A program made the position numbers and the translations under genes. The notes beneath the pieces are model-generated. The model was not told the DNA's origin and made no database searches. It saw only the letters and a program-made list of their open reading frames with translations. Shown here in pieces: positions 34,857-49,586 of a DNA stretch of 64,000 nucleotides. Position 1 is the first letter of the stretch; each line of letters begins with the position of its first letter. The stretch is from Novosphingobium arvoryzae (GTDB taxonomy: Bacteria; Pseudomonadota; Alphaproteobacteria; Sphingomonadales; Sphingomonadaceae): assembly GCF_014652615.1 (NCBI RefSeq), contig NZ_BMZD01000002.1, positions 558,001-622,000 on the forward strand, in the 5' to 3' direction.

Positions 34857-34880
34857 TGCTGCCAGCCTGACGGCTGGAAA

Positions 34881-34961
34881 CGGCACCGGCCCGCTCCCCC
34901 GCCCGGCCACCCACAAATGTACCCTGAATGGGTGGCCGGGCGGGGGAGCGGGCCGGTGCCG
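34881..34961. repeat. palindromic repeat, copy 2
   Basis: Two perfect 33-bp inverted arms (34881-34913 and 34929-34961) around a 15-nt loop containing ATGTAC. Compared with copy 1 (18817-18898) the arms differ by one compensated base pair, while the loop is unrelated except for TGTAC. It lies between ubiE and ubiB on the path of their transcription and could also end or stabilise the ubiE transcript. Confidence 0.85.
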
Positions 34962-35008
34962 CGCGAGGCGCCAGCTTGCTGGCGCCGGTCAACGCACTGA
35001 AACACTAT

Positions 35009-35740
35009 CTAGACCTTCCAGCCCGAATGGATCGCCACCAGCCCGCCCAGGATCGGCTCAACGCGGGTCCGGGTGAAACCGGCGTCGCGGATCATCTGCT
35101 CGAATTCCGGCATTGGCGGGAAGCGGCGGATCGATTCGATGAGATAGCGATAGCTGTCGGCATCCCCCGCAATCGCCTGCCCGATCCTGGGCACCAGCTG
35201 GTGCGAGTAGAAGTCATAGACTTCCTTGAAGCCCGGCCATTCGGTGGTCGAGAATTCCAGGCAGAAGAACCGCCCGCCGTGCTTCAACACGCGGTAAGCC
35301 TCTGCCAGCGCCTTGTCGATGTGGGTCACGTTGCGAATGCCGAACGCGATCGTGTAGGCATCGAAGAACCGGCTGGGAAAGCTCAGCTCCTCGGCGTTCT
35401 GGCGTGACCAGACCAGCGAATCCAGGCCCTTGTCCATCGCCCGCTCGATCCCGACGTCGAGCATGTCCTGGTTGATGTCGGACACCGTCACGGTTGCCCC
35501 GCGCGCGGCGAGGCGGAACGCGATGTCGCCGGTGCCGCCCGCCATATCCAGAATCTGCTCGCCCGGCTGGGGCTTCACCCGCCGCACGAACTTGTCCTTC
35601 CACAGGCGGTGCATGCCCGCGGACATAGCGTCGTTCATCACGTCATAATTCTTGGCAACGCTGGAAAAGACCGCGCCGACGCGCTGGACCTTTTCCTCAG
35701 GAGTGACGTTTTCGTAGCCGAAGGAAACCTGTTCGCTCAT
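35009..35740 (-). CDS. ubiE: ubiquinone/menaquinone biosynthesis C-methyltransferase UbiE
   Basis: A 243-residue SAM methyltransferase. [21 protein letters not shown] and [14 protein letters not shown] are the family N-terminal signatures, [16 protein letters not shown] the SAM site, and [20 protein letters not shown] the later conserved block. It performs the C-methylation step in ubiquinone synthesis. It precedes ubiB on the same strand with a palindromic repeat in between, and is divergent from mutM across 55 bp. Confidence 0.96.
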
Positions 35741-35795
35741 GCCATGGCCCTTAGGGGAGTTTCAGTCTGCCGCAAAGCTTGTTAGCAGCTTCGCC

Positions 35796-36611
35796 ATGCC
35801 GGAATTACCCGAAGTTGAAACCACTGTGCGTGGCCTTGCCCGCTACCTCGATGGCGCACGGCTGGCGCGGGTGGAACTGCGCCGCGCAGACTTGCGCCGC
35901 CCCTTCCCCGTCGATCTGGTACAAGTGCTGACCGGGGCAACTGTCACCGGCATGGGGCGGCGGGCCAAGTACGGCCTGATCCATACCGACCGGGGGCAGA
36001 CCATGGTGTTTCACCTTGGCATGTCGGGCCGCTGGCGGATCGAGCCGGAGGAACTAGGGCCGCATGACCACATGGTGCTGGAAACGGCGAGCGGCCACGT
36101 GCTGGCGCTGTGCGATCCGCGCCGGTTTGGCTCGGTCGATCTGGTGCAGACCGATTCGCTGGAACAGTGGCCGCAATTCGCCGCGATGGGACCGGAACCG
36201 CTTGGCGAAGCGCTGACCGCGCGGCACCTGAAGGCGGCGCTGGCCGGGCGCAGCGCTGCAATCAAGCTGATGCTGCTGGACCAGCGGATCGTCGCAGGCC
36301 TGGGCAACATCTATGTTTGCGAGGCGCTGTTCCGGGCCGGCATCGCCCCGGACAAGGCGGCAGGCCGGGTGTCGGGCCCGGCGCTGGAACGGCTGGTCCC
36401 CGCGATCAAGGCCGTGATTGCCGAAGCGATCGAAGCCGGCGGGTCGACCCTGCGCGACTATGCCCAGCCCGATGGCCAGCTGGGCTATTTCTCCAAGCAG
36501 TTCGACGTCTATGATCGCACCGGGCAGCCCTGCACCCGCTGCGGCCATGAAGTGGCCCGCTTCGCGCAGGGCGGGCGCAGCACCTGGCACTGTCCGAAAT
36601 GCCAGAAGTAA
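35796..36611 (+). CDS. mutM: formamidopyrimidine-DNA glycosylase
   Basis: A 271-residue base-excision repair enzyme for 8-oxoguanine. The N-terminus after Met is PELPEVETTVRGL (catalytic Pro and Glu), GRRAKYG carries the conserved Lys, and the C-terminal zinc finger is CTRCG followed by HCPKCQK. The start at 35796 is fixed by the need for MPELPEVE; the longer in-frame reading would block the catalytic Pro. No strong ribosome binding site is visible. Confidence 0.97.
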   Translation: MPELPEVETTVRGLARYLDGARLARVELRRADLRRPFPVDLVQVLTGATVTGMGRRAKYGLIHTDRGQTMVFHLGMSGRWRIEPEELGPHDHMVLETASGHVLALCDPRRFGSVDLVQTDSLEQWPQFAAMGPEPLGEALTARHLKAALAGRSAAIKLMLLDQRIVAGLGNIYVCEALFRAGIAPDKAAGRVSGPALERLVPAIKAVIAEAIEAGGSTLRDYAQPDGQLGYFSKQFDVYDRTGQPCTRCGHEVARFAQGGRSTWHCPKCQK

Positions 36612-36638
36612 AACCGGCGCCGGCATCGCACTCCCTTG

Positions 36639-36672
36639 TTGACGATTCGGCCCCGCACGGTTAAGGGCCGCG
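36639..36672 (+). promoter_or_regulatory. rpsT promoter, TTGAC-N17-TTAA with GC-rich discriminator
   Basis: TTGAC at 36639-36643, TTAA at 36661-36664, then GGGCCGCG. Spacing is the same as for rpmJ and rpmH. A GATTC (GANTC) site at 36644-36648 directly follows the -35 box. The start codon lies about 95 bp downstream. Confidence 0.6.
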
Positions 36673-36767
36673 CTTCTTGCGGGATCGACTTCGGTCGGGC
36701 GCTCCGCATTTGCAACAGATTAAACCGCTAGGGTGGCTGCACGAAGGCAGCCGAATGAAGGACGAAC

Positions 36768-37028
36768 ATGGCCAATACGCCGCAAGCCAAGAAGCGCATC
36801 CGCCGCAACGAACGTCGCGCCGAAATCAACGGCAACCGCCTGTCGCGCATTCGCACTTTCGTGAAGAAGGTCGAATCGGCGCTGGCCGGTGGCGACAAGG
36901 CCGCTGCTGCCGATGCCCTGAAGGCTGCCCAGCCGGAACTGGCGCGCGGCGTGGCGCGTGGCGTGCTGCACAAGAACACCGCCGCCCGCAAGCTGTCGCG
37001 TCTGACGAAGCGGGTTGCTTCGCTCTGA
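36768..37028 (+). CDS. rpsT: 30S ribosomal protein S20
   Basis: An 86-residue basic helical protein: [20 protein letters not shown] at the start, [19 protein letters not shown] at the end. Both are diagnostic of S20, which binds 16S rRNA early in assembly. GAAGGAC precedes the ATG. It has its own promoter and a strong terminator, and lies upstream of dnaA as in many alphaproteobacteria. Confidence 0.98.
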
Positions 37029-37077
37029 TTCGCGAATCGGATGCGCCAATCGCGGCGCTCCGGCGGAACGAAATGGG

Positions 37078-37110
37078 AAAAAAGCCGGCGCTAAACCCGC
37101 CGGCTTTTTT
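37078..37110 (+). terminator. rpsT terminator
   Basis: AAAAAAGCCGGCG / CGCCGGCTTTTTT, a perfect 13-bp stem with a 7-nt loop and a run of six T, 50 bp after the rpsT stop. Confidence 0.95.
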
Positions 37111-37527
37111 CGTGTCCAAAACGGGTGTTTTTGCTGCTGTGCGGCAACCCTTTGAATTCCGCCGATTCGGTGGCTCTCAACTTTGAAAATCTAGCGTTAA
37201 CAGCGCTTTAGGCATTACCTTCGGGATTCTCCCGCGGCTGCCTGAGTCAAGAGCCATTATTTCAATATTTTTACATCGGCCGCCTTGCCCTTGGCGCTGA
37301 AGCGTCCATAAAACCGGAACTGCCTGAGGCGGTTCTCGCCGGGGCATCACATCAAAGTCTGAATAATGGCGTTGGCCTTGTGGGAAGGCTGGCGGGGGCA
37401 TGGTCTGTGCCATTGGCACCGGCTTGTGGGTTGTTTGTTTGCAGTGGGGGCGCACCGGGTGACTGGTACGGGTTCGAGCAGCCAGCGCAGTGGCGCAGGC
37501 GCCAATAACAGGAATGACGCAGAGCGC
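37111..37527 (+). promoter_or_regulatory. dnaA upstream region with three GANTC sites and a CtrA-like box
   Basis: 417 bp without a gene, less GC-rich than its surroundings around 37150-37270. It contains GATTC at 37164-37168, GATTC at 37225-37229 and GAGTC at 37244-37248, and TTAA-N7-TTAG at 37197-37211, one base from the CtrA consensus TTAA-N7-TTAA. No set of TTATCCACA DnaA boxes was seen, so I do not call it an origin. It most likely holds the dnaA promoter and leader. Confidence 0.55.
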
Positions 37528-38955
37528 ATGATCGACGAACAAGAAGCGCTCGACCTTGCAGCGGACTGGGCTGACATCAGCCAGGGGCTGCGCAAGGATT
37601 TGGGGCAGCAGCTGCACGCGCAATGGATCAAGCCGATCCAGCTGGGCAGCTTCTGCAAGGAAACCGGCACGCTGGACCTTTATCTGCCCACCGAATTTTC
37701 GGCCAACTGGGTGGCGGATCGCTTTGCCGACCGCCTGTCGCTGGCGTGGAAGATCGCCCGCCCCGATGTGCGCCACGTGCGCGTTTCGGTGCTGCCGGGC
37801 CGCCGCGCAATGCAGGGCCTGCGGCTTGGCCGCGATGAGGGCACGCGCCGCGCCGCCAACGATTCGGTCCCGGCCCAGCCGGGCGATGCGCTGGGCCTGG
37901 GCGCGGCGGAACTGGGCGGCATCGGCCAGGCCCCGATCGGGCTAGACCCGTCGCTGACCTTTGCCAGCTTCGTGACCGGGGCGGCCAACGTGCTGGCCTC
38001 GAACGCGGCGCAGCGCATGGCGGCGGTGGAAACCCCGCAGTTCGCTCCGCTCTACCTCAAGGCGGCAACCGGCCAGGGCAAGACGCACCTGCTTCACGCC
38101 ATCGGTCACGCCTATCTGGCGGCGCATCCGCGCGCCCGGATCTTCTACTGCTCGGCCGAGCGCTTCATGGTCGAATTCGTTCAGGCGCTGCGCCAGAACC
38201 AGACCATCGAATTCAAGGCCCGGCTGCGCGGATTCGACCTGCTGCTGGTGGACGATATCCAGTTCATCATCGGCAAGGCCTCTGCACAAGAAGAGCTACT
38301 TTACACGATCGATGCGCTGCTGGCCGAAGGCAAGCGACTGGTCTTTGCCGCCGACCGCGCCCCGCAGGCGCTGGACGGGGTGGAACAGCGCCTGCTGTCG
38401 CGCCTGTCGATGGGTCTGGTGGCCGATATCCAGCCCGCCGACATCGAACTGCGCCGCGCGATCCTCGAACACCGTCTGGCCCGGTTCTCGCCCACGCATG
38501 TTCCGGCGGACGTGGTCGAGTTTCTCGCCCGCACGATCAACCGCAACGTGCGCGAACTGGTTGGCGGCCTGAACAAGCTGATCGCCTATGCCCAGCTGAC
38601 CGGCCAGGCCGTGTCGCTGCAACTGGCCGAAGAACAGCTGACCGACATCCTTTCGGCCAACCGCCGCCGGATCACCATTGACGAGATCCAGCGCACGGTC
38701 TGCCAGTTCTACCGGGTCGACCGCACCGAAATGGCCAGCAAGCGTCGCGCCCGCGCGGTCGTGCGCCCCCGGCAGGTGGCGATGTATCTGGCAAAGGTGC
38801 TGACCCCGCGCAGCTACCCGGAAATCGGCCGCAAGTTCGGCGGGCGCGATCACTCCACCGTAATCCACGCCGTGCGCCTGATCGAAGACCTGCGCACCCG
38901 CGACGCCGACATGGACGGCGACGTCCGCTCGCTGCTGCGCCAGCTGGAAAGCTGA
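37528..38955 (+). CDS. dnaA: chromosomal replication initiator protein DnaA
   Basis: A 475-residue initiator. Domain I (about 12-85) is followed by a short linker, then the AAA+ domain with Walker A ATGQGKTHLLHAIG (about 178-190) and Walker B LLLVDDIQFI (about 236-245). The C-terminal DNA-binding domain IV has the family signature GRKFGGRDHSTVIHAVRLIE (about 433-452). Walker A has Gln where Leu is common (GLGKTHL). The start at 37528 gives the usual alphaproteobacterial N-terminus. rpsT lies upstream. Confidence 0.97.
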   Translation: MIDEQEALDLAADWADISQGLRKDLGQQLHAQWIKPIQLGSFCKETGTLDLYLPTEFSANWVADRFADRLSLAWKIARPDVRHVRVSVLPGRRAMQGLRLGRDEGTRRAANDSVPAQPGDALGLGAAELGGIGQAPIGLDPSLTFASFVTGAANVLASNAAQRMAAVETPQFAPLYLKAATGQGKTHLLHAIGHAYLAAHPRARIFYCSAERFMVEFVQALRQNQTIEFKARLRGFDLLLVDDIQFIIGKASAQEELLYTIDALLAEGKRLVFAADRAPQALDGVEQRLLSRLSMGLVADIQPADIELRRAILEHRLARFSPTHVPADVVEFLARTINRNVRELVGGLNKLIAYAQLTGQAVSLQLAEEQLTDILSANRRRITIDEIQRTVCQFYRVDRTEMASKRRARAVVRPRQVAMYLAKVLTPRSYPEIGRKFGGRDHSTVIHAVRLIEDLRTRDADMDGDVRSLLRQLES

Positions 38956-39089: not shown

Positions 39090-41642
39090 TCAGAAGTCAA
39101 TCCCGGCGCGCAGCCCGAACGTGCGCGGCGTGACCGGCACGACATAGCCGCGCTGGGCGCAGCTGCCGCACTGCTGGAAGCGGGACAGCTGGCCGCGTTC
39201 GTCGAACAGGTTGGCCACGAAGAACTCCAGGTTCAGCTTGCCGATGTCCGCACCGACCGCGAGGTTCACCGTAGCGAACTGTTCGAGGTCGCCCAGGTTG
39301 GCTGCCGGGCTGATCACGTTGCCGGAGAACGTTTCATAGACCGCCGTGCGGATGTCCGACGCGGCCTTGCTCTGATAGGCGACGTTGATCTGGCCATAGG
39401 GCTTCACGCTGCCCATGTCGGCGGTGTAGCGCAGCGTGCTCGACACCTTCCACTTGGGCGTGATCGGCAGGCGGATGCCCTTGGGCGCCGAGATCATGTT
39501 GCCCGGCCCGGTGCAGGCATAGGTCGGGTCATCGATGATGCACAGGTTCTGCAGCGTCTTGGCGTCCGTGTAGGACCCCGCCACGTTGAAGAACAGCCCA
39601 CCGCCATTGTAGGTCAGGTCCATTTCGACGCCCTTGATGCGCGCATCGGGGCCGTTGTGGATTTCGGTGAAGCTGTTCGCCCCCAGGAACGAGAACTGGA
39701 AGTCCTTCCATTCCTGCTGATAGACTGCGCCGTTAAAGCGCAGGCCCGGAGCCAGCGTGGTCTTCCACCCCAGTTCGAAGTTGATCAGGTAATCCGGCGC
39801 ATAGGGCGCCACGTCCGCACGGCGGTTGATCCCGCCGGGGCGGAAGCCCTTGGACACCGTGCCATAGAGCATCACGCTGTTGGTCGGCTTCCAGTTCAGG
39901 TTGAAGCGATAGGTCGCCCCATCGCCCTTGGCCTGGACCGGATTGACCTTGCCATTGGCCCAGGTGCCCAGGTTGGTGCACGGCGTGCCCGGAATGGCAC
40001 CCGGCGCGAAGGTCAGCGCCCCGCCCGTGGCGATCGCGTTGCGCAGGCGGTCACCCGTGGTGGTGAAGCAGCCCGCCACCCCGGTGCGCGAGCTCCACGC
40101 GCCGTTATAGGGCGTGTCGGTATAACCATTGCCCGGATTGCGGCCGAACCCGAAGAACCCGATCAGCGTATTGTCATACTTGAACCCGCGCACCCCGGCG
40201 GTGAGCGTCAGGTTTTCCATGATGTCATAGCTGACTTCGCCGAACAGGGCGTAGTCCTTGTCCACGCGGTGCTGCTTGGTCAGCCACAGCGTGCCGGGGT
40301 TGCCGTTGACCGACATCAGCGGGCCCAGGTTGGGGATCTGATAGTCTTGGAAAATGTCGTTCGACTGGCGCTGGAAGAACGCCCCCGCCACCATCCGCAG
40401 CGGCTTGTCCGCCGGCGAGGAGAAGCGCAGTTCCTGGCTGAGCTTCTTGAAGTGGTCGCTGCCGATGACCAGCTGCGCCGGGTTGGTCGTGTTCCCCAGC
40501 GCATCGGTATAGGCGAAGTAATAGGCCAGCCCGCCGACCGATTCATACAGCGAGTCATAGGCTTCGGCGTAGTCGGTGTAGTCGCTGGAACTGAACGTCT
40601 TGCGGTCCAGATAGGCGCCCGCATAGGTCACGTCCCAGTTGCCGATCTTCCCTTCGATGGTCAGCGCGGCCTGGATGAACTTGTCCGAGCGGTATTCCGG
40701 GAAGAAGTGCTGGACCTGCAGGTCGCCCAGGCTGTCGTCATAGCCGTAGGAGCCGTTGCTCTTGGTGTTCTGGTACATGACGGTCGGCGTCACGGTCCAG
40801 TTGTCGTCCAGGTCAACCTTCAGCGCGGCGCGCGCGCCATAGCTTTCGGTGTCGTTGTAGTTCTTTTCGACGAAGCGGGCGTTGTTCATCGAGATGCCGT
40901 CGCGCAAGCAGCCATTCGCCGCCCCGCCTGCGTCATACAGCGTCGTGCCGCAGAACGTGCGGGTGCCCGCGATGTTGTCGATGTAACCGCCATCGCGGCG
41001 ATAGAAGCCGACCACGCGCAGCGCCGCACGGTCGGACAGCGGCGCGTTGACCATGCCTTCGATCTTGCCGCCGATATCGCCGCTCTTCACGGTGTTGATT
41101 TCACCATCGACGCTGCCGGCGAAACCGCTAGTGTCGGGCTTGTTGGTGATGATGCGGATCGTACCCGCTTCCGACGAGGCGCCATAGAGCGTGCCCTGCG
41201 GGCCGGACAGGCTTTCGATGCGGGCGATGTCATAGATATGGACATCGAGGTTGCCGCCGATGGTGGTGACCGGCTGTTCATCGAAATAGACGCCGACCGA
41301 CGGCAGCGAGCCGGAGTGGTTGCCGTCTCCGCCCGATGCGACGCCCCGCATATAGATCACGCTGTTGCCGGGCGTGCCGCTCGACTGGAACGAGACCGAG
41401 GGCAGCTGCTGCGCATAGCCCTTGAAGTCCGAGATGTTCAGTTCTTCCAGCTTGGCCGTGCCAAGCGCCTGGATCGAGATCGGCACCTTTTGCAGGCTTT
41501 CACTGCGCTTTTGCGCGGTGACGACGATTTCGTTGGCATCGACCGCTTCGTCAGCGGCCTCCTGCGCGAAGACCGGAGCCGCGCTGAGCGCGGTGGAAGC
41601 GAAAAGCGCTGCGGTGACAGCGCGCCGAGTGGCAATGTGCAT
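39090..41642 (-). CDS. TonB-dependent outer membrane receptor
   Basis: An 850-residue receptor. Signal peptide (cut near VFA-QE), then a TonB-box-like region EIVVTAQKR. The plug domain (about 45-165) includes VYFDEQPV and IESLSGPQGTLYGASSEAGT. The long beta-barrel ends in the outer-membrane signal FGLRAGIDF. No FecA-type signalling extension is present. Sphingomonad receptors of this CirA/iron-complex type often import plant or xenobiotic organics rather than iron. Extracellular loops contain paired Cys (about 235-250 and 520-550). ATG at 41642 is preferred because GGGG lies just before it. Its substrate may be that of the downstream oxidation cluster. Confidence 0.93.
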   Translation of the reverse strand: MHIATRRAVTAALFASTALSAAPVFAQEAADEAVDANEIVVTAQKRSESLQKVPISIQALGTAKLEELNISDFKGYAQQLPSVSFQSSGTPGNSVIYMRGVASGGDGNHSGSLPSVGVYFDEQPVTTIGGNLDVHIYDIARIESLSGPQGTLYGASSEAGTIRIITNKPDTSGFAGSVDGEINTVKSGDIGGKIEGMVNAPLSDRAALRVVGFYRRDGGYIDNIAGTRTFCGTTLYDAGGAANGCLRDGISMNNARFVEKNYNDTESYGARAALKVDLDDNWTVTPTVMYQNTKSNGSYGYDDSLGDLQVQHFFPEYRSDKFIQAALTIEGKIGNWDVTYAGAYLDRKTFSSSDYTDYAEAYDSLYESVGGLAYYFAYTDALGNTTNPAQLVIGSDHFKKLSQELRFSSPADKPLRMVAGAFFQRQSNDIFQDYQIPNLGPLMSVNGNPGTLWLTKQHRVDKDYALFGEVSYDIMENLTLTAGVRGFKYDNTLIGFFGFGRNPGNGYTDTPYNGAWSSRTGVAGCFTTTGDRLRNAIATGGALTFAPGAIPGTPCTNLGTWANGKVNPVQAKGDGATYRFNLNWKPTNSVMLYGTVSKGFRPGGINRRADVAPYAPDYLINFELGWKTTLAPGLRFNGAVYQQEWKDFQFSFLGANSFTEIHNGPDARIKGVEMDLTYNGGGLFFNVAGSYTDAKTLQNLCIIDDPTYACTGPGNMISAPKGIRLPITPKWKVSSTLRYTADMGSVKPYGQINVAYQSKAASDIRTAVYETFSGNVISPAANLGDLEQFATVNLAVGADIGKLNLEFFVANLFDERGQLSRFQQCGSCAQRGYVVPVTPRTFGLRAGIDF

Positions 41643-41738
41643 TGATACCCCATCCATGGACTAGTCCGTGAATGAGACTGAATCTCGCCGCCCGATCAGT
41701 CAAGCGGTGGACAGTTTTCGCAATCGCAACATTGCCGC

Positions 41739-41760
41739 TGCGTGACAGATTTGTCACGCA
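41739..41760. promoter_or_regulatory. palindrome upstream of the TonB-dependent receptor
   Basis: TGCGTGACA and TGTCACGCA, perfect 9-bp arms 4 nt apart, 97 bp before the receptor start and just beyond the sulfotransferase stop. No T-run follows on either strand, so an operator is likelier than a terminator. The GTGACA/TGTCAC core recalls CRP/FNR-family sites. Confidence 0.45.
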
Positions 41761-41778
41761 AGCGCCGATTTGGCGGTG

Positions 41779-43389
41779 TTACCAGCCCTCAGGCACCCCC
41801 GGATAGGCGTCCAGCACCGGCCCCAGCGCCTTTCGCAGGTTCCCAAGGAACGGTTCGAACGGCACGTGCGCCTCGGTCCCTTCGCGGAAGATCGGGCGGC
41901 GGACCTGTTCGCTGCTGGCGGTGCGCACCGCGCGCTCGGTCTGGTGGAAAGCCAGGCAGGCGTCCTCGAACGGCACGCCGACGTAATCGAGCAAGCGGCG
42001 CACTTCGGCCTCGGTGTGGTCCACCATGTCCTCGTAGATCACCCGGTGGACCAGCCCCGGCTGGACCCGGTCGAGGTGCGCCATCAGCCGCACATAGTCG
42101 GCATAGTAATGTCCCATGTCGGCAAGGCTGTAGCTGAACGCCTGCCCCTTGGCGAAGTGCTGCTTGTAGTTGGAAAAGCAGCAGCCCAGCGGATGACGGC
42201 GGGCATCGATGATCCTGGCGTTGGGCAGGATCAGGCGGATGAACACCGTATGGACCCAGTTGTTGGGCAGCTTGTCGATGAACAGGGGCCGCTCGGTCTT
42301 GCGCTGGATGCGGGTGCGCTGGAGGAATTCCTCGCCCAGCGCGCGCAGCTGCTCCCCCGTCAGGTCGGGCAGCCCGCGCGGATATTCGCCATCACGGCGA
42401 GCGAGCGCGGGAATGTCGGGCAGCTCGCTCGTCCCCTCGATCAGGCTGTGGCTGGACAGGATCTGCTCGACCAGCGTGGACCCGGCGCGCGGCATCCCCA
42501 GGATGAACACCGGATCGGGCGCATCGCAGCCCTGCCCCGCGCGCGCTGCGAAAAACTCTGGCGTGGCAATCGCGATCAGCTGGTCGACGAAGCGACTGGT
42601 GTCGCTGGCCTGATAGTCCAGCCGGGTGCGGCGCAGGGCATTGGCCGCGTCATAATGCGCGAAGGATGCCGCCACCTCGCCCCGGTCCTCCAGCGCCTTG
42701 GCAATCGCAAAATCGAGGTGGAAGCGATCCTCTACCGCAATGTCGCCGCGTTCCAGCGCGGCCTCCATCGCGGCAATGTCTGCATCAGTGAACTTGACCG
42801 TTTTCAGATTTGCCAGGCTCCACCACGCCTCGCCCAGCTCGGGCATCAGCTCCAGCGCCTTGCGGTAGGCGGCCACCCCATCGGCCGTGCGCCCAACGGT
42901 CTTGAGCATATGACCAAAGCTCATCCAGACGCGCGGCTGGCGCGGGGCCTGCGCCAGCACTTTCTCATAGAGCGCAATCGCGTCCTCGAACTCACCCAGA
43001 CGGCCCAGCGCGGCAGCCTGGAGGTTGGTGTGGCCGGCATTGTCCGGCTCTTCCGCCAGCACGCGGTTTAGTTCCGCAATCGCTTCTTCCGGGCGGTTCT
43101 GGCGGTAAAGCACCAGCGCCAGGTTGGCCCTTGCGGCGGTGAACGCGGGCGACAGTTCCAGCGCGCGGCGCAGCAGGTTCTCGCTGTCGCGATAACGCCC
43201 GATCCGCCCGGCCAGCTCGGCAAACATCCGGATCGCGGCAACGTCCAGCGGATCGGCCTTGAGGTGTTCGCGCAGCAAGGGTTCGGCGCGCGGCAGGTCG
43301 TTCTCGTTCAGCGCGACAGCAGCGGCGATCAGGCGCGGGTGATAGCGGCCAAGGCGGCTCAGCCAGGATTGTTGCGGTAAGGATGCCAT
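41779..43389 (-). CDS. TPR-repeat sulfotransferase
   Basis: A 536-residue cytoplasmic protein. The first 230 residues are tetratricopeptide repeats (for example RDSENLLRRALELSPAFTAA and RPEEAIAELNRVLAEEPDNA). The rest is a sulfotransferase domain with the 5'-phosphosulfate loop FILGMPRAGSTLVEQIL (about 292-308) and the 3'-phosphate-binding region with RHPLGCCFSNYKQHF. Such TPR-sulfotransferases are numerous in sphingomonads; acceptors are unknown. GGGGG precedes the ATG at 43389, and the longer in-frame reading upstream is antisense to the permease. It is divergent from that permease gene. Confidence 0.9.
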   Translation of the reverse strand: MASLPQQSWLSRLGRYHPRLIAAAVALNENDLPRAEPLLREHLKADPLDVAAIRMFAELAGRIGRYRDSENLLRRALELSPAFTAARANLALVLYRQNRPEEAIAELNRVLAEEPDNAGHTNLQAAALGRLGEFEDAIALYEKVLAQAPRQPRVWMSFGHMLKTVGRTADGVAAYRKALELMPELGEAWWSLANLKTVKFTDADIAAMEAALERGDIAVEDRFHLDFAIAKALEDRGEVAASFAHYDAANALRRTRLDYQASDTSRFVDQLIAIATPEFFAARAGQGCDAPDPVFILGMPRAGSTLVEQILSSHSLIEGTSELPDIPALARRDGEYPRGLPDLTGEQLRALGEEFLQRTRIQRKTERPLFIDKLPNNWVHTVFIRLILPNARIIDARRHPLGCCFSNYKQHFAKGQAFSYSLADMGHYYADYVRLMAHLDRVQPGLVHRVIYEDMVDHTEAEVRRLLDYVGVPFEDACLAFHQTERAVRTASSEQVRRPIFREGTEAHVPFEPFLGNLRKALGPVLDAYPGVPEGW

Positions 43390-43455
43390 GTGCCCCCAAG
43401 AAACATGATGACGCGCCGCAATCAAGCGATAGGTTGCACGGTGAAGGGGATCACC

Positions 43456-44748
43456 ATGACCGCAGCGGCTTCGGCATCCACGTCCGGCAAACTCGGCTTT
43501 GCCGCGCTGCTGGCGCTGGTCATCGGCAACATGATCGGATCGGGCATCTATCTGCTGCCCGCCACGCTTGCCCCGCTGGGATGGAACCAGCTGGCCGGCT
43601 GGGGCACCACCATCATCGGCGCGCTGGCGCTGGCCTTCGTGTTCGCGCGGCTGGGGGCCAAATTGCCGATCTCCGGCGGGCCCTATGCCTACGCCAATGC
43701 CGCCTTCGGGCCGTTCGCCGGGTTTGCGACCGCGTGGTCGTACTGGGTGATGAGCTGGGTTGGCAACGGCGCGGTGGCCGTGGCGGTGGTATCCGCGCTC
43801 AGCCTGATCTTCCCCGCCATCGGCCAGACCCAAGGATTGCCGGCATTGCTGGCGGTCACCTGCGTCTGGCTGGTCACGTGGATCAACATTCGCGGCGTGC
43901 GCGAGGCGGGCTATGTGCAAAGCGTGACGGTGGTGCTGAAGCTGCTGCCGCTGCTGGCGCTGATCGGGGTGGCGCTGTGGCTGTGGCTGAGCGGGGGGGA
44001 GCGTGTGCCCGATCCAGGCGTGCCGTTCAGCACGGCCTCGCTGGCCACGGCGGCGGGCCTGACGTTCTGGGGCTTTCTGGGGCTGGAAGCGGGAACCGTC
44101 CCGGCGGACAAGGTCGATGATCCCGCACGCAATGTTCCCCGCGCAACCATGATCGGGGTCATGGTGACGGGGCTGGTCTATGTGGGCATTTCCGTTGCCT
44201 TTGCGCTGTTCATGCCGGTGGGCGAAGCCGCCTCATCAGCCGCGCCGATTGCCGATTTCCTGGGCCGCTACCTGGGCGGGGAACTGGCCATCGTGGTCGC
44301 CGCCTGCGCCGCGATCAGCGCGTTCGGCACGCTAAACGGCTGGGTGCTGGTGCAGGCGGAAATGCCCTGGGCGATGGCGCGCGGCGGGGTGTTCCCGCGC
44401 TGGTTCGCGGCCGAGGGCAAGCACGGCACGCCGGTGCGCTCGCACCTGGTCTCCAGCGCGCTCCTGACGCTGGTGACGCTGATGAACTATCAAAAGGGCA
44501 TGGCCGAATTGTTCGGCTTCATTGCCTCGATCAGTCTGGCGGCCGGTCTGCTGACCTATCTGATGAGTGCGCTGGCCGCGCTGCGGCTGATGCCCGGCGA
44601 CCGCCCGCTGGGCATCGCCGCGCTGATCGCGGCGGCGTTCACCCTGTGGGCCGAATGGGGCCTGGGGGTGGAGGCCATGCTGTATGGTGCACTGCTGATC
44701 CTGTGCGGCGCACCGGTCTATTGGGCGGTGCGCCGACAGGATACCTAG
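43456..44748 (+). CDS. APC-family amino acid/polyamine permease
   Basis: A 430-residue inner-membrane transporter with 12 hydrophobic segments. The first helix carries VIGNMIGSGIYLLPATLAPL, the substrate/Na-site unwound GSGIY motif of the amino acid-polyamine-organocation family. PISGGPYAYANAAFGPFAGF is the next conserved block, and FWGFLGLEAGTVPADKVDDP the usual TM6 region. It looks closest to arginine/agmatine or basic amino acid antiporters, so the cargo is likely an amine or amino acid. GAAGGGGA lies 5 nt before the ATG. It is convergent with the oxidoreductase gene. Confidence 0.9.
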   Translation: MTAAASASTSGKLGFAALLALVIGNMIGSGIYLLPATLAPLGWNQLAGWGTTIIGALALAFVFARLGAKLPISGGPYAYANAAFGPFAGFATAWSYWVMSWVGNGAVAVAVVSALSLIFPAIGQTQGLPALLAVTCVWLVTWINIRGVREAGYVQSVTVVLKLLPLLALIGVALWLWLSGGERVPDPGVPFSTASLATAAGLTFWGFLGLEAGTVPADKVDDPARNVPRATMIGVMVTGLVYVGISVAFALFMPVGEAASSAAPIADFLGRYLGGELAIVVAACAAISAFGTLNGWVLVQAEMPWAMARGGVFPRWFAAEGKHGTPVRSHLVSSALLTLVTLMNYQKGMAELFGFIASISLAAGLLTYLMSALAALRLMPGDRPLGIAALIAAAFTLWAEWGLGVEAMLYGALLILCGAPVYWAVRRQDT

Positions 44749-44750
44749 GT

Positions 44751-46349
44751 TCAGCTCCGCAGCAGCTTCCTGAGCAGGGGCCGGTCCGCCAGAATCGCGT
44801 GGGCTGCGTTGTGGCCCGGCGCGCCGGTCACGCCGCCACCGGGGTGCGTGCCCGCGCCGCACATGTAGAGGCCCTTGATCGGCCCGCGATAGTCGCCATG
44901 CCCCAGCACGGGCCGCGCGGCCCACAGTTGATCGATGCCCATCGTGCCATGCATGATGTCGCCGCCGATCAGGCCGAACTTGCGTTCCAGATCGAGCGGC
45001 GAATGGATCTGACGCGCGATCACGCTGGCCTTGAAATTGGGAGCGTGGTCGTTGACCGTGTCGATGATAAGGTCCGCCACGGCTTCGCGGTGGGTGTCCC
45101 AATCGACCTTCGGATCGAACTGCTGGCAAAACAGGCTGGCGACGTGCTGGCCCGGAGGGGCCAGACTGTCATCGACCGTGCTGGGCAGCATGATCTCCAC
45201 AATCGGCTTCTTTGACCAGCCGTGCTGCTGCGCGTCGGTAAAGGCGCGGTCCATGTAGTCCAGCCCCGGCGCGATGATGATCCCGGCGGTGTGGTGTTCG
45301 GCCTGCGCCTTGCCCGGCAGGACCGAGAAGTCGGGCAGCTCCGACAGTGCGACGTTCATGCGGAACGTGCCGGAGCAGGTCTTGTAGCCCTTGATCCGGC
45401 GCTTGAAATCGTCGTCCAGATCACTGGGATCGACCAGTTGGCGATAGAGCAGCGCGGGGCCAGCGTTCGACGCGACGATGGTGGCGGCGATTTCCTCGCC
45501 GCTTTCCAGCTTCACGCCGCGCACCTTGCCGCCATCGACCAGGACCTTGGCGACGGGCGATTCCAGGCTGATTTCGACCCCGGCGGCTTCGCACGCGCGG
45601 GCCATCGCCTGCGTGATCGCGCCCATGCCGCCCACTGCGTGCCCCCACGCGCCGGGCTTGCCGTTCACTTCGCCGAACACGTGGTGCAGCAGGACATAGG
45701 CCGAACCCGGCGTGGACACGCCCGCGAAGTTGCCGACCACCGCGTCGAACGCGAAAGCGGTTTTCACGCGGTCATCCTCGAACCAGCCGTCGAGGAAATC
45801 GCGCGCGGACTTGGTGAAGATGTCCAGCAGGTCGCGCTGCACCGACAGGTCCATCTGCGCCATCGGCCAGCCCTGCTTCGCCGCCGCGACCAGCGCCGAC
45901 AGCCCGCCGCCGACGTTGGGCGGGATCTGCATAGACAGGTCGCGCAGCACATTGGCCACCTTTTCCAGCGCGGCGTCATACTGGGGATAGGCGGCGGCAT
46001 CGGCAGCGGAAAAGCGGGCGAATTCCGCCTCGGTCCGGCCCTGCCCGCCGCCCAGCTTCAGGTAGTCATTCTCGAACGGGAAGAAGTTGCTGATCGTGCG
46101 TTCGATCACGCGATAGCCGTGCTCGTGCAACTTCATGTCCGCGATCACCTTGGGCCGCAGCAGGCTGACGGTGTAGCTGGCGGTGGAATTGCGGAAACCG
46201 GGGTGGAACTCCTCGGTCACGGCGGCCCCGCCCACCACGGCGCGCCGCTCCAGCACGCGCACCCGCATCCCCGCCTTGGCAAGGTAGAAGGCGCAGGTCA
46301 GGCCGTTGTGGCCGCCGCCGATGATCAGCGCGTCATAGGTCTTGGTCAT
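44751..46349 (-). CDS. FAD-dependent oxidoreductase, PYROXD2 / phytoene-desaturase-like
   Basis: A 532-residue flavoprotein. The N-terminal FAD motif is IIGGGHNGLTCAFYLAKAG (about 9-27), followed by the GGAAVTEEFHPGFRN stretch. The C-terminal FAD motif is GLYMCGAGTHPGGGVTGAPG, as in carotenoid desaturases and ketolases (CrtI/CrtO) and mammalian PYROXD2. No other carotenoid gene is nearby. It lies 3 bp after the Rieske oxygenase gene, so the two form an operon and probably act in one pathway. Confidence 0.9.
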   Translation of the reverse strand: MTKTYDALIIGGGHNGLTCAFYLAKAGMRVRVLERRAVVGGAAVTEEFHPGFRNSTASYTVSLLRPKVIADMKLHEHGYRVIERTISNFFPFENDYLKLGGGQGRTEAEFARFSAADAAAYPQYDAALEKVANVLRDLSMQIPPNVGGGLSALVAAAKQGWPMAQMDLSVQRDLLDIFTKSARDFLDGWFEDDRVKTAFAFDAVVGNFAGVSTPGSAYVLLHHVFGEVNGKPGAWGHAVGGMGAITQAMARACEAAGVEISLESPVAKVLVDGGKVRGVKLESGEEIAATIVASNAGPALLYRQLVDPSDLDDDFKRRIKGYKTCSGTFRMNVALSELPDFSVLPGKAQAEHHTAGIIIAPGLDYMDRAFTDAQQHGWSKKPIVEIMLPSTVDDSLAPPGQHVASLFCQQFDPKVDWDTHREAVADLIIDTVNDHAPNFKASVIARQIHSPLDLERKFGLIGGDIMHGTMGIDQLWAARPVLGHGDYRGPIKGLYMCGAGTHPGGGVTGAPGHNAAHAILADRPLLRKLLRS

Positions 46350-46352
46350 GAT

Positions 46353-47534
46353 TTAAGTCCTGCTCCAGCCCGGTGCGGGCGCAAAGGGTTGGCGGGCCTG
46401 CGGGATCAGCGCGCGGATCTTTTTGGCGAAGCTGCGCAGGCAGACCTCGCTCTTGCCGATGGGGCCATTGCCATAAGTGCGGCTCTGCATCCCCTGCTGC
46501 ACGCGGTTGATCAGCCAGGTGTCCTCAGCATTGACCACCCGGTTGATCCGCCAGTTGGCATAGCGGACCAGCTTCATCTCGCGCCGGTCATCCGGCAGGC
46601 AATAGGCCACTTCGCGCAGCAGGCAGGTCGTCGGGCTGATCGGCAGCCACTGCATGAAGTCGATCTGGTCGGCATAGATGTCGAACGCCATGTTCGGCCA
46701 GAGCTTGAAATAGAGCCAGCGCCCGTGCGCTTCCTCCGGCAGGTGATCGACGCGGGGCATGTGGGCGGAATAGAACTTCTCCCAGAAGTTCTGCTTCTCG
46801 TTCTTCACCACATCGCCATAGAGCCGGTCGGCCCAGCCATGCGCCTCGATCCGATAGGTCTTGCCGACCAGTCGGGTCAACCCGTCATGCGCGACCGGGA
46901 TGTGCAGGTTGTCGGAATAGTTGTCGCCCACGTTCTTCCAGTTGACGTCGCGCGGGCGGTGGCGAACGTCGCCCATGGGGCGCATGTCCGCAAACCGGTA
47001 CTGCGCCACTTCCGCCTCGAACGGAGCCATCATTTCGCCGGGCGTGGGGAAGCCTTCAGGCTGAAGGCAGACGAACACGAAGCCGTGCCACACTTCCAGC
47101 GCGACTGGCACCAGCCCGTGCTCTTCCAGCTTCAGCGCAGGGTATTCGGACTTCATCGGCACGCCCGACAGCCGTCCGTCGGTTTCGAACGTCCACGCGT
47201 GATAGGGGCAGACCAGCTTTTTCGCGCAGCCTGCCGGCCCTTCGACCAGCCGCATCGCGCGGTGGCGGCAGACGTTGGTGAAGGCGCGGATTTCGCCGTC
47301 GTCGCCGCGAATGACAATCACGCTCTCGCCCAGGAAGTCGAGCGTGCGGTAATCGCCCGCGCCCTCGATTTCGCTCACATGGCAGACGATCTGCCAGCTG
47401 GGGCGGAAGATCCGCGCCTGCTCCAGCGCGAAGAATTCCGGGTCGTGATAGATCCACCCCGGCAGGCTGAAATCGGCGTCGGGATCGGCCGTTTCGGCGG
47501 CGATCTCGGCAAAAGCGTGGTCGGGGTGGCCCAT
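46353..47534 (-). CDS. Rieske non-heme iron oxygenase, catalytic subunit
   Basis: A 393-residue ring-hydroxylating-dioxygenase-type alpha subunit. Rieske 2Fe-2S ligands: Cys89-x-His91 and Cys109-x2-His112. Mononuclear iron ligands are likely His211 and His216 in DNYSDNLHIPVAHDG, with a later Asp. The DNYSDNLHIP spacing and solitary alpha subunit resemble oxygenases that demethylate quaternary amines (stachydrine, carnitine, glycine betaine) as well as aromatic oxygenases. No ferredoxin or reductase is adjacent; electron supply must come from elsewhere or from the FAD partner. The start at 47534 matches the family; it is divergent from a TetR gene. Confidence 0.92.
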   Translation of the reverse strand: MGHPDHAFAEIAAETADPDADFSLPGWIYHDPEFFALEQARIFRPSWQIVCHVSEIEGAGDYRTLDFLGESVIVIRGDDGEIRAFTNVCRHRAMRLVEGPAGCAKKLVCPYHAWTFETDGRLSGVPMKSEYPALKLEEHGLVPVALEVWHGFVFVCLQPEGFPTPGEMMAPFEAEVAQYRFADMRPMGDVRHRPRDVNWKNVGDNYSDNLHIPVAHDGLTRLVGKTYRIEAHGWADRLYGDVVKNEKQNFWEKFYSAHMPRVDHLPEEAHGRWLYFKLWPNMAFDIYADQIDFMQWLPISPTTCLLREVAYCLPDDRREMKLVRYANWRINRVVNAEDTWLINRVQQGMQSRTYGNGPIGKSEVCLRSFAKKIRALIPQARQPFAPAPGWSRT

Positions 47535-47557
47535 GGGTGCGACGATTCCTGCAATGC

Positions 47558-47579
47558 TTGTTGGACAGTCGTACAACAA
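47558..47579. promoter_or_regulatory. operator-like palindrome between Rieske gene and tetR
   Basis: TTGTTG-N10-CAACAA, perfect 6-bp arms, centred in the 62-bp divergent region. A nested 16-bp near-palindrome, TTGGAC-N4-GTACAA, shares its centre region. Size and place fit a TetR dimer site controlling both directions. Confidence 0.55.
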
Positions 47580-47596
47580 CTGCTAGGTTCCAGCAA

Positions 47597-48202
47597 GTGA
47601 CGAGCCCGCCCGCCTTTCGCCGGTCCGAACCCGATGCCCGCCGCGCCGACCTGATCGCCGCGACCGCGCGGGTGCTGGCGCGTGAGGGGACCGGCGGGGC
47701 CAGCGTGCGGGCCATCGCGGTGGAGGCGGGCGTCTCGCCGGGGCTGGTCGGGCATTACTTCGCCGGGATCGACGCGCTGGTCGCGGCGACGTATGCCCAC
47801 GTCGAGCACACGGTTAGCGAAGCGCTGGACGCCGCCGTCGCCGCCGCCGGGCCAGACCCGCGCGCGCGGCTGGATGCCTTCGTCACCGCCAGCTTCAGCC
47901 CGCCCATCGCCAGTGGTGAACTGCTCGCCACCTGGACCGCGTTCTGGAGCCTGGTGCGCAGCCGCGATGACATCGCCCGCCAGCATGACGAGCAATACGC
48001 CGCCTTTCGCGCGCGGCTGGAATCGCTGCTGGCGGAATGCGGCCTCCCCGCCCCGCGCCTGCGCCACGCGGCGATTGCCATTACCGCGCTGGTCGACGGC
48101 CTGTGGCTGGAGCTGTGCCTGTCACCGCAGGCGTTCAGCGCGGACGAAGCGGGCACGATCGCCCGCTCCGTCCTCGATGCGCTTACTTCGTCAGGTCGGT
48201 GA
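47597..48202 (+). CDS. TetR-family regulator, BetI-like
   Basis: A 201-residue repressor-type protein. HTH region: RRADLIAATARVLAREGTGG, then ASVRAIAVEAGVSPGLVGHY with the BetI-like GLVGHYF recognition helix end. The C-terminal ligand domain has WTAFWSLVRSRDDIARQH, also like BetI (choline-responsive) relatives. It starts with GTG at 47597. It is divergent from the Rieske/oxidoreductase operon across an operator-like palindrome and overlaps the convergent M20 peptidase gene by 20 bp. Confidence 0.88.
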   Translation: MTSPPAFRRSEPDARRADLIAATARVLAREGTGGASVRAIAVEAGVSPGLVGHYFAGIDALVAATYAHVEHTVSEALDAAVAAAGPDPRARLDAFVTASFSPPIASGELLATWTAFWSLVRSRDDIARQHDEQYAAFRARLESLLAECGLPAPRLRHAAIAITALVDGLWLELCLSPQAFSADEAGTIARSVLDALTSSGR

Positions 48203-49586
48203 CCAGGCTGAGGTAGTAAACCAGCCCCGGCTTGATGTTGGACAGCGCCACCCGCTCGTTCAGCCCGTGGGCGTAATCGTCCGAATCCTTGCTGAAGGTC
48301 GCGCTGGCGCCATAGCTGTCGACGCCCTGCGCGCGGAACCACATCGAATCGGTCGCGCCCGACGACTGCATTGGGAACACCGGAGTGCCGGGCCGCGCCT
48401 TGGCAATTGCGCGTTCGGCCGCACGGAGGAAATCGGGCCGCATCGGTGAAGCCGGGGCGGCAACCGATTCATCGCCGGTCGCGTCCGTCACCTTCAGCCC
48501 CGGCACCGCGGCAATCCGCTCCAACTCCACGCGGATTTCCTCGCGGCTGTGGCCGGGGAAAATGCGGCAGTTGACGTTGGCGGTGGCGCGCTGCGGCAGG
48601 GCGTTCTGCGCGTGACCGCCGCTGACCATCGTCGGCACGCAGGTCGTCCCGACCTTGCCGACATAGGCCTGGTTGGCGCGCAGGATCGCCAGCGCAGCTT
48701 CGTCCTGCGGGTTGGCGGCAAAGGCGCGCATTGCGCCGGCCAGCTTCGCGTCGGTCTCGAACCGGGCGGCCTGCTCGAAATAGGCCTTGGTCACCGGGTT
48801 GATCTCGGCCGGGAAACGATAGCTGCCGATCCGTTCCAGCGCGGTCGCCAGCTGGACAATCGCGTTGTCGGGACGCGGGGCAGAACTGTGCCCGCCCGGA
48901 TTGGTCACTTCCAGCAGGTAATCGTTGTAGGTCTTTTCCGCGCCCTGCCAGGTCCAGTAGAGCGGCTTGGCCGTAGCTTCGTCCAGCGTGCCGCCGCCAC
49001 CATCGATGTTGATCACCATCTCTGCGTGCTTCAGCCGCTCGGCCACGATCCGGCTGGTCTTCATCGTGGTTTCTTCATCGCCGGAAAACTGCAGGATGAT
49101 GGTGCGCTTGGGCTTGTAGCCCTGGCGGCGCAGCTCGATCAGGCTGGACGTGGCCATCGCCGCGTCGAACTTCATGTCGCTCGCCCCGCGCCCGAACAGA
49201 TAGCCGTTTTCCACCACCGGGGTGAAGGGATCCCGCTCCCAGTCGGACGGCTTGGCTTCCACCACGTCCATGTGGCCGGAAATCACCAGCGGCTTGAGCT
49301 TCGGGTCGCTGCCCGGCCAGGTGGCGATGAAATAGGCGGTATCGTCGACCGGCGTGATTTCCACCTGATCGGTGCGCCAGCCGCCCGCCACGAGCGCGGC
49401 CTTGACCAGTTCCAGCGCCTCGGCGGTCTTGTTGCCTTCGCCGCGCACGGTGCGCAGCGCGATCAGCTGCTTCGACAGGTCCAGCACTTGCGCTTCGGCC
49501 TGGGGGTAGCTTGCCGGGGCCGCCGCCAGCGGGGCCGCGCCAGCGCCCAGCAGGGCCAGCGTCAACGGGACAGTCATGAAACGCAT
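48183..49586 (-). CDS. secreted M20-family metallopeptidase
   Basis: A 467-residue M20 peptidase with a signal peptide (cut near LAA-AP). Metal ligands: His in ISGHMDVV, Asp in GRGASDMKFD, the Glu pair in SGDEETT, a later Asp in INIDGGGG and a C-terminal His in YAHGLNERV. The dimerisation domain includes NPGGHSSAPRPDNAIVQL. Periplasmic members are usually dipeptidases or carboxypeptidases; an aminoacylase role is also possible. AAAGGAG lies before the ATG. It could release the amino compound taken up by the nearby permease, but this is speculation. Confidence 0.9.
   Translation of the reverse strand: MRFMTVPLTLALLGAGAAPLAAAPASYPQAEAQVLDLSKQLIALRTVRGEGNKTAEALELVKAALVAGGWRTDQVEITPVDDTAYFIATWPGSDPKLKPLVISGHMDVVEAKPSDWERDPFTPVVENGYLFGRGASDMKFDAAMATSSLIELRRQGYKPKRTIILQFSGDEETTMKTSRIVAERLKHAEMVINIDGGGGTLDEATAKPLYWTWQGAEKTYNDYLLEVTNPGGHSSAPRPDNAIVQLATALERIGSYRFPAEINPVTKAYFEQAARFETDAKLAGAMRAFAANPQDEAALAILRANQAYVGKVGTTCVPTMVSGGHAQNALPQRATANVNCRIFPGHSREEIRVELERIAAVPGLKVTDATGDESVAAPASPMRPDFLRAAERAIAKARPGTPVFPMQSSGATDSMWFRAQGVDSYGASATFSKDSDDYAHGLNERVALSNIKPGLVYYLSLVTDLTK

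Follow-up and report, generated by a model that had tools for sequence, protein, structure and literature searches.

A conserved Rieske oxygenase-flavoprotein operon of sphingomonads, its predicted TetR operator and its possible role in the catabolism of cationic amino acids

The stretch of Novosphingobium arvoryzae DNA analysed here (64,000 nucleotides, positions 558,001 to 622,000 of contig NZ_BMZD01000002.1, family Sphingomonadaceae), referred to below as the window, carries a two-gene operon in which the gene of a Rieske oxygenase alpha subunit is followed by that of a flavin adenine dinucleotide (FAD) flavoprotein, both on the minus strand and 3 base pairs (bp) apart. The operon is faced by a TetR-family regulator gene across a palindrome and by an APC permease gene tail to tail, the permease gene ending 2 bp from the flavoprotein stop codon (Table 1). 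A preliminary description of the locus had listed these four genes, their arrangement, a TonB-dependent receptor and a TPR-sulfotransferase. All six genes were recovered with the same coordinates and the tail-to-tail arrangement was upheld, but the list had missed a recurrent member of the locus, an M20 metallopeptidase gene. The longest open frame of the TetR gene begins at position 47537, which would place the palindrome within the gene; the start given in Table 1 is the most likely one. The assembly (GCF_014652615.1) comprises 3.29 Mb in 34 contigs, and the nearest named relatives of the Rieske protein belong to Novosphingobium and other Sphingomonadales.

Table 1. Genes and predicted operator of the locus, in window coordinates
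Feature	Position	Strand	Basis
TonB-dependent receptor, plug and barrel, outer-membrane uptake	39090..41657	-	Pfam PF00593/PF07715
TPR-sulfotransferase (Sulfotransfer_3)	41779..43389	-	profile match; recurrent at Rieske loci
APC permease, start codon uncertain	43441..44748	+	nearest solved relative AdiC
FAD flavoprotein (FLAV), CrtI/CrtO-type fold, second operon gene	44751..46349	-	profiles and structure model
Rieske oxygenase alpha subunit, first operon gene	46353..47534	-	profiles, model, tree, residue alignment
22-bp palindromic predicted operator TTGTTRTACGANYGTNCAACAA	47558..47579	.	0 mismatches on the minus strand
TetR-family regulator, BetI-type C-terminal domain	47597..48202	+	profile matches
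M20 metallopeptidase of the PRK09133 subfamily; N-terminus leader-like by eye	48183..49586	-	569 bits

The conservation of the gene pair was surveyed in 298 genomes of the family, with Rieske orthologues accepted at E ≤ 1e-60 and the flavoprotein at E ≤ 1e-100. Rieske orthologues were present in 97 genomes (98 places) and the flavoprotein in 156. At 81 of the 98 places the two genes lie within 2 kb of each other, on the same strand in every case, with the flavoprotein gene downstream in 80 of them and a gap of 3 to 1220 bp (324 bp or less in 79/81). The flavoprotein gene is on another contig at eight places and distant at five, and adjacency is unsettled at four (G077, G238 and G274, where the match carries no position, and G007, which has no flavoprotein match at 1e-100; G and L numbers are our handles for genomes and loci). 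With family members included, the Rieske gene was present (E ≤ 1e-50) in 22 of the 385 genomes of a class-wide sample and in 22 of the 398 of a phylum-wide sample. Ten Rieske orthologues with at least 48% identity come from outside the family, and for four of them (L146, L148, L151 and L204) the fetched stretch also holds the flavoprotein. Thus, the pair is tight within the family and looser beyond it. The pairing is far above chance level, and both the proposed two-gene operon and the co-occurrence of its genes across genomes have held up in the family.

In genome G234, which has the canonical locus L263, the two genes form another pair in L183 (4155-15689), where their order is reversed; by eye, the neighbouring genes there resemble those of a beta-keto acid cleavage enzyme and of peptidases. 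In L170 (9193-13586) a flavoprotein gene without a Rieske gene lies near genes resembling, by eye, tryptophan 2,3-dioxygenase and kynureninase. In L151 (9395-14940) the pair is followed by a pyroglutamyl-peptidase-like gene and then by hutF and hutG.

The operon is part of a larger recurrent module. Gene order was compared over the 80 best named loci, which are the closest matches and hence lean to near relatives, and the recurrent order is receptor, sulfotransferase, permease, flavoprotein, Rieske, TetR and M20 peptidase; four Erythrobacteraceae-type loci (L114-L117) have the same seven genes in a different order. Novosphingobium taihuense (L061) and Sphingomonas echinoides (L095) are two of the species in which the module is complete, with all seven genes present. 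Genes were called with a codon-model caller, which still fails at loci such as L206, and families were clustered over 115 loci with a Rieske gene, many being truncated at the end of a contig. The flavoprotein family occurs at 83 of these loci, TetR at 73, the permease at 67, the M20 peptidase at 56, the sulfotransferase at 51 and the receptor at 44, and clustering of the called genes found no further family in more than 12 of the 115. The M20 peptidase is assigned to the module because of this recurrence. The TPR-sulfotransferase, which recurs in the module, is the sole match of its kind in the window genome at E ≤ 1e-15. Beside the module, window positions 33303-38955 contain dnaA-, mutM-, ubiE- and ubiB-like genes, and relatives of dnaA, ubiE and ubiB likewise adjoin the flavoprotein gene in L167; the module is probably located near the replication origin.

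The palindrome in front of the Rieske gene occurs at one place only in the window, where it is matched on both strands, and at none in 100 shuffles; the operator is also found at a single site in the whole genome. Sixty-three of 64 divergent TetR/Rieske gaps hold a site with no more than 7 mismatches from TTGTTGTACGATCGTACAACAA (61 with no more than 5). In the control, 317 of 320 random stretches of the same loci had at least 8 mismatches, and the other three had drawn the true site itself. A search at ≤ 3 mismatches placed the site between the TetR and Rieske genes in 8 of 11 genomes of the genus. At ≤ 2 mismatches, 43 sites were found in 39 of the 298 family genomes against none for the reversed-pattern control, and 37 of the 43 lie 25-71 bp upstream of a Rieske start. 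Five of the other six are upstream of the flavoprotein gene alone (G075), upstream of an amidohydrolase gene (G069 and G234), between amidohydrolase and M20 genes (G011) or at a fragmentary Rieske gene where a contig ends (G141). Upstream sites were present at 63 of 115 Rieske genes at ≤ 3 mismatches and 67 at ≤ 5 (distant homologues included), at one and three of eight amidohydrolase genes, and at 0 and 2 of 1069 genes outside the module.

Thus, the distribution of the operator indicates a TetR regulator dedicated to the Rieske-flavoprotein operon, and the preliminary description had rightly placed the two face to face across a palindrome. In one genome that has the flavoprotein without the Rieske gene (L179/L267), the operator is upstream of the flavoprotein gene alone. 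It precedes the amidohydrolase gene in L262 and L263 and is shared by divergent amidohydrolase and M20 genes in L264 and L092 (in weaker form in L104 and L106), L092 having sites upstream of the Rieske gene, of the amidohydrolase and M20 genes and of the receptor gene. These sites suggest that in a few relatives TetR control extends to peptidases and the receptor. The label "BetI-like" attached to the regulator did not survive, as it missed both BetI cut-offs (118 where 201 is required, 114 where 118 is), and a plain BetI/choline role was rejected on that account.

The structure model of the Rieske protein (mean predicted local distance difference test score, pLDDT, 93.3) has CntA (Z 36.7, 2.4 Å over 341 residues) and Stc2 (Z 36.3) as tied nearest folds, with terephthalate dioxygenase at 35.3, and its sequence matches the CntA structure 6y9c with 126 bits. 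Residues were compared over 81 sequences, namely that of the window and those of the 80 best named loci. The CxH/CxxH cluster ligands and the 2-His-1-Asp site (C89, H91, C109, H112, H211, H216 and D338) are intact in all 81, and so is Tyr206, at the position of CntA Y203. In CntA this tyrosine faces the trimethylammonium group of the substrate, and an aromatic residue at 203 is given as the mark of clade Va (PMC7948474). Asp285 and Glu308, each present in 80 of 81, align with the CntA substrate contacts N270 and Y295, and the phmmer alignment agrees. The bridging residue is Asp208 in all 81 sequences, versus Glu in CntA (E205), and the Cys-x-x-Cys pair is absent from all of them, with Asn, Gly or His and Ile at those positions. 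The reference sequences (CntA, YeaW and Stc2) and 7/7 GbcA loci over the cut-off have both the bridging Glu and the two Cys residues; the Cys-x-x-Cys beside the iron site is described as a feature of "some" group V members (PMC10952381).

In a maximum-likelihood tree, GbcA, CntA, YeaW and Stc2 fall into a 16-row clade (support 100/99) that excludes the window clade, although the root is unsure because of a very distant outgroup; the latter consisted of five other Rieske proteins of the window genome, whose functions were not determined, and two Rieske loci of this genome, L005 and L006, are missing from the tree because the extraction motif did not pick them up. The window protein does not group with these five proteins. 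It scores 140 bits against the GbcA equivalog NF058607 (cut-off 670), and orthology with GbcA or Stc2 was rejected on the residues at the tyrosine, bridge and cysteine positions and on the separate clade. Thus, a cation site like that of clade Va, combined with a different bridge and no Cys pair, points to a separate Rieske subgroup. The proposal of an N-demethylase-type enzyme stands in part: two amine oxygenases, CntA and Stc2, come closest among solved structures, but the protein is not of the GbcA, CntA or Stc2 type.

A search for CntB-, YeaX- and Stc4-type reductases (four queries, 1e-8) found none among the 1728 called proteins of 131 stretches, and tblastn in the same stretches found none near the operon either. 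In contrast, this search detected an Stc4-type gene at 14 of 18 GbcA or GbcA-like loci and recovered the reductases of L222, L223, L237 and L238. The description of the Rieske gene as solitary was thus correct. For Stc4, the top match recovered from the window genome has 24% identity.

The flavoprotein model (pLDDT 87.6) is most similar to the gamma-carotene desaturase 4rep (Z 33.7, 3.0 Å over 477 residues, 16% identity). Its best NCBIfam match is CrtO (NF045689) at 254 bits against a cut-off of 1000, and it reaches 133 of the 238 bits required for CrtI (TIGR02734). Elsewhere, the genome encodes another CrtI match (677 bits, one TGA flagged in it), and a carotenoid role of the flavoprotein was rejected with this match. 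The flavoprotein may be related to human PYROXD2, a protein without known activity; the label "PYROXD2-like" given to it earlier is a loose one. Variants of human PYROXD2 are reported to associate with N6-methyl-lysine and, most strongly in that study, with N6,N6-dimethyl-lysine (PMC9730628).

Among solved structures, the permease is best matched by the arginine/agmatine antiporter AdiC, which scores 210 bits, whereas the family ranked second reaches 100, and TIGR00905, basic amino acid/polyamine antiporters, is the best of its family matches (265 bits, below the cut-off of 409). The M20 peptidase passes the PRK09133 cut-off of 349 bits, and its nearest solved relative, aminoacylase-1, is uninformative (58 bits). 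The operator-linked amidohydrolase of the relatives, whose cluster has no member among the genes called in the window, passes the NF051886 model (501-532 bits in L262-L264 and 527 bits in L204; cut-off 500). The best solved match of the L264 enzyme is Cc2672 (3mtw), deposited as an L-arginine carboxypeptidase; it scores 336 bits, and the chain ranked second 250. With the L262 enzyme, Cc2672 scores 312 bits and is followed, at 277, by a chain that bears the name Xaa-Pro Dipeptidase. Enzymes of the Cc2672 type cut Arg and Lys and were formerly mislabelled as prolidases. The N-termini of the M20 peptidase and the amidohydrolase appear leader-like by eye, so a location outside the cytoplasm fits both. 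Thus, the permease, the peptidases and the operator sites together indicate a peptide-derived basic amino acid, and nothing specific pointed to choline, betaine or proline betaine, compounds named in the preliminary description.

More distant Rieske homologues (34-37% identity) are encoded on plasmids of Rhizobium, Shinella and Fuscovulum, next to two flavoprotein-type genes, an omega-aminotransferase, spermidine-type ABC transporter genes and TetR. A GcvT-type aminomethyltransferase is also present in the Rhizobium and Fuscovulum loci (L224 and L240), while the Shinella stretch ends before that point; the Rhizobium protein matches the C-terminal half of trimethylamine N-oxide demethylase and GcvT below the cut-off. 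The Fuscovulum cluster includes a second, group V-like Rieske gene. The 45% identical homologue in L153 has a protein resembling dimethylsulfoniopropionate (DMSP) demethylase nearby (357 of 410 bits). Its neighbours also include an agmatine-deiminase-like gene, an N-carbamoylputrescine amidase, which at 463 bits passes the cut-off of 410, and proteins with a weak likeness to PotD, the one tested reaching 79 of 582 bits. These layouts fit stepwise N-demethylation with transfer of one-carbon (C1) units. The distant relatives belong to other Rieske subgroups with different residues around the Tyr position, and in the clade with polyamine-type ABC genes Asp occupies the position of this Tyr.

On the Fuscovulum ytuae plasmid NZ_CP124537.1 (L240, 2361-15181) the TetR, aminotransferase, two flavoprotein, aminomethyltransferase, two Rieske and polyamine-type ABC transporter genes are contiguous, one Rieske enzyme being group V-like and the other window-like. 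This cluster looks like a complete N-demethylation pathway without a name.

On this evidence, we tentatively favor a regulated module for the uptake and catabolism of an N-alkylated, most simply N-methylated, cationic amino acid derived from small peptides or conjugates. Gene conservation, the predicted operator, including that at peptidase genes of some relatives, and the active-site residues are established here; the substrate, the reaction, the order of steps and the electron donor are inferred. The TonB-dependent receptor would import the peptide over the outer membrane, and secreted peptidases (the M20 enzyme and, in some relatives, the Cc2672-like Arg/Lys carboxypeptidase) would release the amino acid, which the APC permease would bring inward. 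The Rieske enzyme could then oxidise the alkylammonium group, with Tyr206 turned toward the cation and Asp285 and Glu308 holding the other positive end. The flavoprotein would oxidise the resulting tertiary or secondary amine, and the two steps together would release formaldehyde. TetR bound to the palindrome would repress the operon until a pathway intermediate binds to it.

Our leading guess for the substrate is N-epsilon-methylated lysine (tri-, di- and monomethyl), on the strength of the PYROXD2 association, the cation site and a permease and peptidase of Arg/Lys type taken together, and we give it a modest probability. The specific scheme, in which bacteria consume methylated lysine from protein debris, with trimethyl-lysine demethylated by the new Rieske subgroup and di- and monomethyl-lysine by the PYROXD2-kind flavoprotein, is nevertheless unlikely. 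The overall class, Rieske-based amine catabolism, is already known in kind. We call the pathway undescribed solely because of literature searches, in which Rieske with methyllysine and TonB receptor with sulfotransferase in Sphingomonas returned nothing and Rieske with trimethyllysine returned only unrelated titles among the matches listed. From the earlier suggestion of an undescribed amine pathway, the conserved operon, the operator and the solitary Rieske enzyme remain, while the betaine and BetI labels do not.

A number of observations weigh against the reading of the module as a dealkylation pathway under TetR control. CntA is inactivated by the E205D exchange (PMC7948474), and the Asp bridge of the window clade means that its chemistry may differ from that of group V; the missing Cys pair is a further departure, and the distant family orthologues L183 and L184 differ at the acidic pocket (Asp/Asp and Glu/Thr). 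In the fold comparison of the flavoprotein, amine oxidases (putrescine oxidase Z 23, monoamine oxidase 22) rank below the carotene desaturase and other oxidoreductases, and its kinship with PYROXD2 is putative. Since 156 of the 298 family genomes have the flavoprotein and 97 the Rieske gene, the flavoprotein also works without the latter; it occurs alone in 54 of the 147 genomes for which its position is listed. Conversely, it was not found in the fetched stretches of six of the ten orthologues outside the family (L147, L149, L150, L203, L205 and L206). Clustering over the 115 loci revealed no conserved C1-handling family in the sphingomonad module, and the NCBIfam name of the amidohydrolase is "Xaa-Pro dipeptidase".

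The reach of the operator is also limited. At ≤ 2 mismatches it is present in only 37 of the 97 Rieske genomes, and 47 of the 115 upstream stretches of Rieske genes, distant homologues included, have no site at ≤ 6 mismatches. In the window only the Rieske-flavoprotein operon has a site, there being none at ≤ 3 mismatches for the M20, permease and receptor genes. Sites at genes other than Rieske and TetR occur in few relatives, with the amidohydrolase at three of eight, and the three further operator-bearing loci were chosen for their sites and do not count as a rate. The sixth of the family sites outside Rieske promoters (G215) adjoins an unrelated gene, alcohol dehydrogenase-like in appearance, and the genus search at ≤ 3 mismatches gave one stray site (G1031), with the reversed control matching once in each of two genomes.

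Among the other explanations, degradation of a basic amino acid with an unmethylated side chain (arginine, lysine or a derivative) by C-H hydroxylation and flavin oxidation is rather unlikely. The AdiC-like permease and the Cc2672-like carboxypeptidase would then indicate Arg or Lys itself, the Asp bridge and the missing Cys pair set the enzyme apart from the N-dealkylating group, and the sphingomonad module lacks a conserved C1-handling family; however, it would leave the invariant cation-facing Tyr and the GcvT-type or DMSP-demethylase-like genes of the distant clusters unaccounted for. We regard a polyamine, agmatine or N-methylated polyamine as a doubtful substrate. The spermidine-type transporters and omega-aminotransferase of distant relatives and the two L153 genes of putrescine and agmatine type favor it, but their Rieske proteins share just 34-45% identity with that of the window, the clade with polyamine-type transporters has Asp at the Tyr position, and the window module includes peptidases.

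A stachydrine-like pathway for proline-type or other neutral amino-acid betaines is improbable. Stc2 is tied with CntA as the nearest solved structure and the co-regulated amidohydrolase bears the Xaa-Pro label, yet Stc2 has Asn at the Tyr position, a Glu bridge, the Cys pair and a place in a different clade, and on chemical grounds an N,N-dimethyl-prolyl nitrogen is unable to form the peptide bond cut by such a dipeptidase. An aromatic-ring oxygenase system is slightly less probable still. Ring-hydroxylating Rieske enzymes have a bridging Asp, which counts in its favor along with the close terephthalate dioxygenase fold, but no family beyond the six named is conserved nearby, no reductase of the types searched was found, and the Tyr and acidic pocket residues are conserved. 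Carotenoid or terpenoid modification, with the flavoprotein as desaturase or ketolase and the Rieske protein as hydroxylase, is hardly credible despite the CrtO match and the desaturase fold, given scores far under the family cut-offs, the separate CrtI match and neighbours that are peptide and amino-acid genes.

If N-alkyl amino acid catabolism is indeed the function, a widespread uncharacterised Rieske subgroup, present in about a third of the sampled family genomes, would gain a pathway, together with a regulator whose operator is sharply defined and a few candidate substrates that can be tested. The module would represent a new route for recycling modified amino acids out of proteins, and Rieske amine chemistry would extend to active sites that have an Asp bridge and lack the Cys pair. 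It would also offer a bacterial system for the direct assay of a flavoprotein putatively of the kind of PYROXD2, which is genetically linked to methyl-lysine levels, and PYROXD2 itself would gain an activity if the methyl-lysine reading is true.

Compared with known systems, the module shares individual features with several of them. Cc2672-type L-Arg/Lys carboxypeptidases (COG1228) resemble the amidohydrolase that bears the module operator in L262-L264 and L092, whereas the window carries the M20 peptidase in its place. The CrtO, CrtI and CrtN oxidoreductases have the 4rep fold in common with the flavoprotein, which fails their family cut-offs in a genome with another CrtI match. The BetI-type C-terminal domain of TetR recalls the choline-betaine operon; in contrast to that operon, no further family is conserved around the genes described here, betA and betB not having been sought by name. 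GbcA and Stc2 (group Vb) are N-methyl-removing Rieske enzymes of the same overall fold, but they have Asn at the Tyr position, a Glu bridge and the Cys pair and form another clade, and an Stc4-type reductase gene accompanies most GbcA or GbcA-like loci and none of the window type. Relative to CntA/YeaW with CntB (group Va), the window enzyme differs in its Asp bridge, the absent Cys-x-x-Cys, the acidic residues found where CntA has N270 and Y295, the lack of an adjoining reductase gene and the surrounding genes; with CntA, the nearest solved structure, it shares the DNYx[D/E] spacing and the cation-facing Tyr.

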